From Pseudomonadota bacterium (GTDB lineage Bacteria; Chloroflexota; Ktedonobacteria; Ktedonobacterales; JADMIN01): 54,563 nucleotides of DNA. Each line of letters starts with the position of its first letter. Position 1 is the first letter of the stretch. Of the stretch, positions 6,912 to 8,757 are shown in pieces. The notes beneath the pieces were generated by a model. It worked only from the letters and a program-made list of their open reading frames with translations. It made no database searches and was not told the DNA's origin. Location of the stretch: assembly GCA_021324535.1 (NCBI GenBank), contig JAJPIU010000138.1, positions 1 through 54,563 of the forward strand, read 5' to 3'. The position numbers were made by a program, and so were the translations under genes.

Positions 6912-6935
6912 ATATATGCCCACAAGGGAGAAACA

Positions 6936-7160
6936 CTATTTAGCGGCGTCATCCAGCTTTTGCTCGGCGCTTCCCACTGTGCTTTCGAGTGAGCCTTTGC
7001 CCTGACGGAGCTTGCCCTTGGCCTCTTCCGAGCGATCGCCGGTCAGCTTGCCCATGCCTTCCTGCACCTTTCCGGCCACCTTGTCTGCCATGCCCTGGCC
7101 TTCATGCTCACGGCCATAGTCGCCCATGTCTTTGCCATCTTGATCGCGATCGGTTGTCAT
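6936..7160 (-). CDS. CsbD family stress protein
   Basis: 74 aa, ADKVAGKVQEGMGKLTGDRSEEAKGKLRQGKGSLE is typical of the CsbD family. Confidence 0.85.
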   Translation of the reverse strand: MTTDRDQDGKDMGDYGREHEGQGMADKVAGKVQEGMGKLTGDRSEEAKGKLRQGKGSLESTVGSAEQKLDDAAK

Positions 7161-7398: not shown

Positions 7399-8646
7399 AT
7401 GGATTGCAGTGGGCGGTTGATTGCGTCTCGCCTGTTCCGAAAGGAGCCTGCTACGAGTATACTTCCCTTTCCACTTGGCCCCTACCATCCTGCGCTGACC
7501 CAGCCCGTCGCGCTGACGCTGGCAATGCGCGATGAGACGATAATTGATGTGCGGGCGCCCGACGCCCCGGCGGACGACTCGACGCCAACCACAGGCTACT
7601 GTCGCCGTGGGGCGGCTGCGCTCTGTATTGATCGGACGCCAGCCGATGCGCTGGCGATTCTCGAACGTTCGTGCTCGCTGGCAGGCGAAGCCCACCGGTT
7701 GGCGGGCTGCCTGGCGCTGGAAGCTGTGACACAAACCGAGGCGCCCACCCAGGCGCGCATTGCCCGCACGTTGTTTGTCGAGATCGAGCGCATCCTGGCG
7801 CGCCTCTGGACGCTTGGGCAGACCGCGCGCGCCGCCGAGGAGCAGACGCCCTTTCACGAGGCGATGGAACAGCGAGAATTGCTGTTTGGCGCGCTCGAGG
7901 CGACGACCGGCGCGCGTATGTTCTGGGGCGTGGCCCAACCCGGCGGCGCGCGAACCGATCTGACGCTGGCCCCCCTGCGCGAGGCGCTGGATCGCTTCGC
8001 GCCCACCATTGAGACCTGGCGTGTAGTCACCGGATCAGATGGCCCGCTTGGGCGGATTGGCGCGCGTTTGGGGCAGCTTGGCCGAAGCCTCGCCAACGAG
8101 CTTGGCGTGCAGGGATTGGCCGCCTGCGGCGCGGGCGTCGCGACCCTACACGATCTGCGCAAAGACGCCCCATACGATGGGTATCAGGATGTCGCTATTG
8201 AGGGCCTCGAATCGTCTATAGGTCAGACGGCCAGAACCAACGACACAACCAGCCCCAACAAAGTAAGCAGGGCAAACAGGGCAAGCAATGGGAACGGCCA
8301 ACGCGGCGATGTCGCCGCTCGTATGCGCTGCGCAGCGGACGACATCGCGCTGAGTGTACGTCTTGTGCAGGCGTGTTTTGAGGAACTTGGCGAGGAGCCA
8401 ACCTGGGAAAACGCCGCAGTGCGGCTGCGCCCAGGCTCCTCTGAGGTCACGGTTGAGGGGCCACATGGCCCGGCGACGGTCGCCCTCGCGCTGGACGCCA
8501 GGGGCGTCATCACCGATCTTCGGTTGACAACTCCCGCCGCCGCGACTCTTGCCGCGACGCCTGCCCTGCTGACGGAGCGCCCGTTGGCTGAGGCGGCGGT
8601 GATCCTGGCTAGCCTTGACCTGTGCCTGGAATGTGTTGACCTCTGA
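7399..8646 (+). CDS. Divergent NuoD / [NiFe]-hydrogenase large subunit-like protein (group 4 / EchE / HycE-like)
   Basis: PFPLGPYHPAL...DETIIDV...GYCRRG...ERSCSLAGEAHRLAGCLALEAV parallels the NuoD/EchE N-terminus including RxCGxCxxxH (here RSCSLAGEAH). ARTLFVEIERILARLW and GARMFWGVAQPGGAR also match. C-terminal ASLDLCLECVDL parallels the DPCxxC motif. ORF is open from 7216; start 7399 is inferred. Confidence 0.65.
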   Translation: MDCSGRLIASRLFRKEPATSILPFPLGPYHPALTQPVALTLAMRDETIIDVRAPDAPADDSTPTTGYCRRGAAALCIDRTPADALAILERSCSLAGEAHRLAGCLALEAVTQTEAPTQARIARTLFVEIERILARLWTLGQTARAAEEQTPFHEAMEQRELLFGALEATTGARMFWGVAQPGGARTDLTLAPLREALDRFAPTIETWRVVTGSDGPLGRIGARLGQLGRSLANELGVQGLAACGAGVATLHDLRKDAPYDGYQDVAIEGLESSIGQTARTNDTTSPNKVSRANRASNGNGQRGDVAARMRCAADDIALSVRLVQACFEELGEEPTWENAAVRLRPGSSEVTVEGPHGPATVALALDARGVITDLRLTTPAAATLAATPALLTERPLAEAAVILASLDLCLECVDL

Positions 8647-8757
8647 CCCGGCGAACCCGTCAAACCCTGATGTATCCCTTGTATCTGTGTGTTTCTCGCT
8701 TCAACGCAATCTGACTCATAGGCTGGCAGGCTGTGGTGGAAAGTGGAGGAGATCGGT

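Follow-up and report, generated by a model that had tools for sequence, protein, structure and literature searches.

Background

Group 4 [NiFe] hydrogenases, the Ehr complexes, the sulfur reductase MBS and complex I are the described systems closest to the locus reported here. In MbhL, the large subunit of the Pyrococcus furiosus hydrogenase MBH, the Ni ligands are Cys68, Cys71, Cys374 and Cys377, of which we take Cys68 and Cys374 to be the terminal Ni ligands and Cys71 and Cys377 to bridge Ni and Fe. Glu21 of the same subunit is the proton gate (PMC11228991). The Ehr complexes are like the group 4 enzymes and complex I, and are not expected to bind Ni-Fe (PMC6349859, PMC4378227, PMC10284858). 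MbsL of MBS keeps only C85 and C385, which are dispensable for catalysis, and the quinone residues of complex I are His38 and Tyr87 of Nqo4 (PMC7684303). True group 4 enzymes carry all four ligand cysteines and NuoD none, as the initial annotation of the DNA studied here had stated and our comparison bears out.

In this paper, we have analyzed a stretch of 54,563 nucleotides (the window), which encodes a large subunit with three of the four Ni-ligand cysteines. A fixed three-of-four state of this kind was not found in searches of open-access papers.

Results

The large subunit and its motifs

The window contains a set of four genes, in the order large subunit, antiporter-like subunit, NuoB-like subunit and NuoH-like subunit. 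These genes, together with the sites in the large subunit that are discussed below, are as follows:

7441..8646, + strand: large subunit (PF00346, NuoD/EchE/MbhL-like)
7501..7503, + strand: Gln at the position of MbhL Glu21 (proton gate)
7672..7674, + strand: Cys, equivalent to MbhL Cys68, invariant in 13/13 clade members
7681..7683, + strand: Ala, equivalent to MbhL Cys71 (ligand lost), Ala in 7/7 window-family members that cover it
8464..8466, + strand: His at the position of MbhL Arg320 (active-site Arg)
8623..8634, + strand: CLEC, with Cys equivalent to MbhL Cys374 (invariant), Glu at position 376 and Cys equivalent to MbhL Cys377 (12/13)
8743..11532, + strand: antiporter-like membrane subunit (PF00361; kin of NuoL/M/N and HycC; possible start GTG 8758)
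11529..12227, + strand: NuoB-like small subunit (PF01058)
12224..13237, + strand: NuoH-like membrane anchor (PF00146)

The open reading frame (ORF) of the large subunit opens at ATG 7216; since its conserved part begins only at ~7462 and in-frame starts are available at ATG 7399 and TTG 7417, the first 60-70 residues of the ORF are probably not translated. Just upstream, the raw sequence can be read as a possible small CsbD-like ORF on the reverse strand (window 6930-7160).

The N-terminal motif is translated as LERSCSLAGEAHR, in which the ligand positions read C-S-L-A (Cys 7672-7674, Ala 7681-7683), and the C-terminal motif as ASLDLCLECVDL, ending at the stop codon, with D-L-C-L-E-C at 8617-8634 (Cys 8623-8625 and 8632-8634). 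The three-of-four state (CxxA plus CxxC) described in the initial annotation is thereby confirmed, and so is its DLCLEC motif, but the coordinates that it gave for the latter, 8623-8634, span CLEC only. It had also pointed out that the protein lacks a C-terminal extension. The chain does end after the motif, with V-D-L and a stop following the final Cys; however, the solved MbhL chain, like several large subunits with four Cys from the same phylum, stops right there as well, so the missing extension is uninformative and was dropped as evidence.

Pfam and NCBIfam assign the large subunit to the NuoD/49 kDa family, and the N-terminal motif also weakly matches [NiFe] hydrogenases. The best solved match of a profile built from 12 relatives is MbhL of P. 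furiosus (6cfw_L), over the full length and with an E value of 6e-59. In this alignment the four motif positions fall without gaps on Cys68, Cys71, Cys374 and Cys377, so the superposition on the Ni ligands that had been presumed for the cysteines holds. The predicted model of the large subunit (mean pLDDT 83, pTM 0.85) has the fold of the complex I 49 kDa subunits and of HycE. Asp372 is kept, and the counterparts of Nqo4 His38 and Tyr87 are absent, the alignment giving Thr and Ser at these positions.

Conservation of the Ni pocket

Within the window's family, seven sequences (the window, G004-G008 and G010) extend over both motifs, and each of them has the pattern of CxxA plus CxxC, so the orthologues do fix this pattern, which the initial annotation had proposed to test; G003, of the same family, covers the second motif only and agrees with CxxC there. 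Of the sister-family members, G019, G141 and G086 have all four Cys, the first motif is CGSD in G224 and CGSA in G094, and the second is CVAD in G051. Over the whole clade of 13 members, Cys68 and Cys374 are present in 13/13, Cys377 in 12/13 and Cys71 in 4/13. The window protein has nine Cys, and only those at the ligand positions are conserved (the positions of Cys68 and Cys374 invariant, that of Cys377 in 12/13) while the other six vary; therefore, the match to the Ni-ligand positions is not due to chance. In a tree computed with the motif columns masked, three changes are needed at position 71. The decay of the Ni ligands in this clade, as read from the alignment, is stepwise, with at least three losses of Cys71 and one of Cys377.

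Other pocket residues vary as well. MbhL Arg320 is kept in 3/3 four-Cys members and in 0/10 three-Cys members, which have His or Gln there, a split that amounts to just two independent pairs on supported branches and is too small for a significance test. Four members (the window, G004, G005 and G010) have Gln in place of Glu21, and they are the only ones with Glu at position 376; each of the 13 members has Glu at either 21 or 376, never at both, and the swap is a single event in the tree. As G019 and G141 keep Glu21, His75 and Arg320 together with the four Cys, the ancestor may have been active.

The dN/dS ratios are 0.12-0.16 for all four genes between G141 and G019, and 0.25-0.33 for three genes between G007 and G008, values that come from these two pairs of relatives. 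The relatives are thus under purifying selection, which makes a pseudogene unlikely, and the pure relic that the initial annotation had listed as one option is accordingly disfavoured.

The neighbouring subunits

ATGA overlaps join the antiporter-like, NuoB-like and NuoH-like genes, and the order of the four genes is the same in the relatives, except that some have the first two separated by an unrelated gene. Near the set, homologues of NuoC and NuoI were not found. Both NuoC homologues of the window genome adjoin its two complex I nuoD genes, with none to spare, and only one of its three NuoB homologues lies within the window.

The profile of the antiporter-like subunit was aligned to NuoL/M/N, HycC and HyfB/D/F of E. 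coli (99% probability). In the window protein, Glu144, Lys229 and Lys399 of NuoL are replaced by Leu, Ala and Gln, respectively; among the antiporter-like members aligned, Glu144 and Lys229 are replaced in 11/11, and Lys399 has become a non-Lys residue (Arg in three). Without these key residues, the subunit is unlikely to pump protons as complex I does. The NuoH-like subunit of the window keeps the Glu residues of the ExxSG loop, and NuoH Glu157 is absent from it.

The NuoB-like subunit, on the other hand, has all four Cys of the proximal [4Fe-4S] cluster (residues 37, 40, 106 and 136), with the CxxC spacing of the hydrogenase type. All four are kept in the window's family, and f2, a sister family, has lost the fourth, which is Asp or Asn there except in G086. 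The NuoB-like protein of G086 (L062, G086:C58, 7690-8235) has lost all four cluster Cys, and the large subunit of the same genome keeps its four.

Tree and distribution

In the tree, the 13 members are united in a single clade (100/100), whose stem measures ~1.1 changes per column. A 100/100 split divides NuoD from the group 4 enzymes, and the clade lies on the group 4 side. Its placement is resolved to that side as a whole, and it does not join L107, the sole Ehr-like sequence in the tree. The initial annotation had called the three-of-four state intermediate, which is apt as anatomy but not as an evolutionary step: the separate, long-stemmed branch on the group 4 side suggests that the clade is a side branch in which decay ran in parallel, and not a step toward complex I.

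Among the order's 47 genomes, 14 have a match to the family model, 8/11 in the window's family (f1), 5/6 in f2, 1/1 in f4 and 0/29 in f3, so the complex appears, as far as sampled, to be confined to some families of one order. When the named genomes were searched by degenerate pattern with the single window protein, only a distant locus in Acidobacteria was returned. Ordinary complex I is present in 47/47 genomes of the order. L107 itself (G006:C68, 3385-5085) lies in a genome with the three-Cys complex and is an additional, Ehr-like large subunit, 566 aa long and devoid of Ni-ligand Cys.

Maturation genes and other hydrogenases

HypD and HypF were not found in any genome of the window's family, and HypC was found only in G002, G003 and G005. 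HypC, HypD, HypF and PF00374 hydrogenases were all without a match in the window genome (91% complete assembly) and in G004, G006, G007, G008 and G010. Hydrogenase genes are present in G002, G005, G019 and G141, yet no HypD or HypF match was found there either, so gaps in such assembled genomes do occur and the absence of Hyp proteins is not airtight. A missing HypD, considered as proof of a missing cofactor, was weakened by these evident-hydrogenase genomes.

Several of the other hydrogenase loci were recorded. L102 (G005:C12, 10224-14102) is a group 1-type [NiFe] hydrogenase operon with a protease and HypC, in a genome where HypD and HypF were not found; the case of G002 (G002:C139) is similar. 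L103 (G019:C27, 2985-5540) is a hydrogenase set with intact RICGIC and DPCISC and a protease-like ORF, G019 giving no HypD or HypF matches. L089 (G086:C33:6611-8161) matches [NiFe] hydrogenase large subunits and has one in-frame TAG.

Discussion

Proposed function and alternatives

We consider it probable, at about 0.6, that the four genes encode a minimal, H2-inactive, Ehr-like four-subunit derivative of a group 4 energy-converting [NiFe] hydrogenase. Since a nickel-holding Cys is lost in every member of the window's family that can be read at that position, we infer that the complex no longer carries out H2 chemistry. The window's family would have dismantled the Ni-Fe pocket through the changes of Cys71 to Ala and Arg320 to His, and the window's sub-branch would have changed Glu21 to Gln in addition; with these residues lost, the cofactor could presumably be neither completed nor used. 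The maturation genes, moreover, appear to be absent from most genomes of the window's family that carry the complex. What remains would be a proximal [4Fe-4S] site of the NuoB type and, facing it, a pocket that contains two terminal-type Cys, one formerly bridging Cys and one Glu. By analogy with MBS, the emptied pocket may act as a chamber next to the proximal cluster, and the leftover Cys may serve as structural thiols or as a simple Cys3-Glu metal site. As no NuoI-type subunit is encoded nearby, a putative soluble carrier would hand electrons directly to the NuoB cluster.

The residual Cys might instead make up a purely structural Zn or simple Fe site that pins the C-terminus in a non-redox membrane assembly, such as a scaffold or a sensor for ions or voltage, a reading that we regard as possible but rather unlikely. 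The invariance of Cys68 and Cys374, the loss of the pump residues from the antiporter-like subunit, the Asp or Asn in place of the fourth NuoB-like cluster Cys in the other f2 members, and the G086 protein, in which the whole cluster is gone beside a four-Cys large subunit, all fit such a role. However, the four cluster Cys kept in the window's family and the purifying selection on the NuoB-like gene in relatives suggest that redox chemistry still matters in that family. A further reading, which we hold to be doubtful, keeps the redox function: the genes would specify an assembly of the complex I superfamily free of both H2 chemistry and ion pumping, with a new Cys3-Glu metal site near the NuoB [4Fe-4S] cluster, anchored to the membrane and working as a redox sensor or as a reductase.

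A decaying relic without function is improbable. The long stem, the many functional residues lost and the absence from 29/29 genomes of the sister family f3 would agree with it, but the four genes are intact and keep their order in several genera, some residues are invariant, and the dN/dS ratios of both relative pairs (0.12-0.33) run against it. Metal binding by the three-Cys site is conceivable in principle, and with three of the four ligands and Asp372 kept, and Glu376 between the two C-terminal Cys as a replacement ligand, the protein might even be imagined as a hydrogenase with a [NiFe] or Ni-only centre. Such activity is highly improbable, since a bridging Cys is missing along with Arg320 and, in the window, also Glu21, and neither Hyp proteins nor any other [NiFe] hydrogenase were found in the window genome.

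Comparison with known systems

The H2-inactive derivative that we favour shares with MBH and other group 4 [NiFe] hydrogenases its best solved full-length match, the positions of the pocket and the CxxC spacing of the NuoB-like subunit. In contrast to them, it is without one Ni ligand (Cys71 is Ala), Arg320 and, in the window, Glu21, and is encoded by a set of four genes only, with no pump residues in the antiporter-like subunit; HypC, HypD and HypF were not found in the 91% complete assembly of the window genome. Like the Ehr complexes, it combines subunits of the complex I/group 4 type with an incomplete Ni-Fe motif; unlike them, it has a fixed partial Cys set and no NuoC domain or NuoI, and its clade branches apart from the single Ehr-like sequence in the tree, both kinds being carried by G006.

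In its sequence, the complex differs from both complex I and MBS. Its large subunit has the fold of NuoD but is separated from it by the 100/100 split, and NuoD combines 0/4 Cys with a quinone-site His and Tyr that the window protein does not have. With MBS it shares the stepwise loss of Ni ligands, C85 and C385 of MbsL corresponding by alignment offset to the pair that is invariant here, Cys68 and Cys374, as well as the lack of MbhL Glu21 and of the quinone residues. In MBS, however, neither bridging Cys is left, the NuoB-like loop is shorter, and there are ferredoxin-type subunits for electron entry and Mrp-type pumps, where the set studied here has only its four genes without the pump residues. 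A group 4 large subunit that retains most of its Cys can belong to a pumpless non-hydrogenase, which calls for caution. The clade offers living relatives of the same gene order with four-Cys and three-Cys pockets, with Arg kept and Arg lost, and with and without the NuoB cluster, whereby the stepwise loss of the Ni-Fe site that has been proposed for MBS and complex I becomes testable through the comparison of close relatives.
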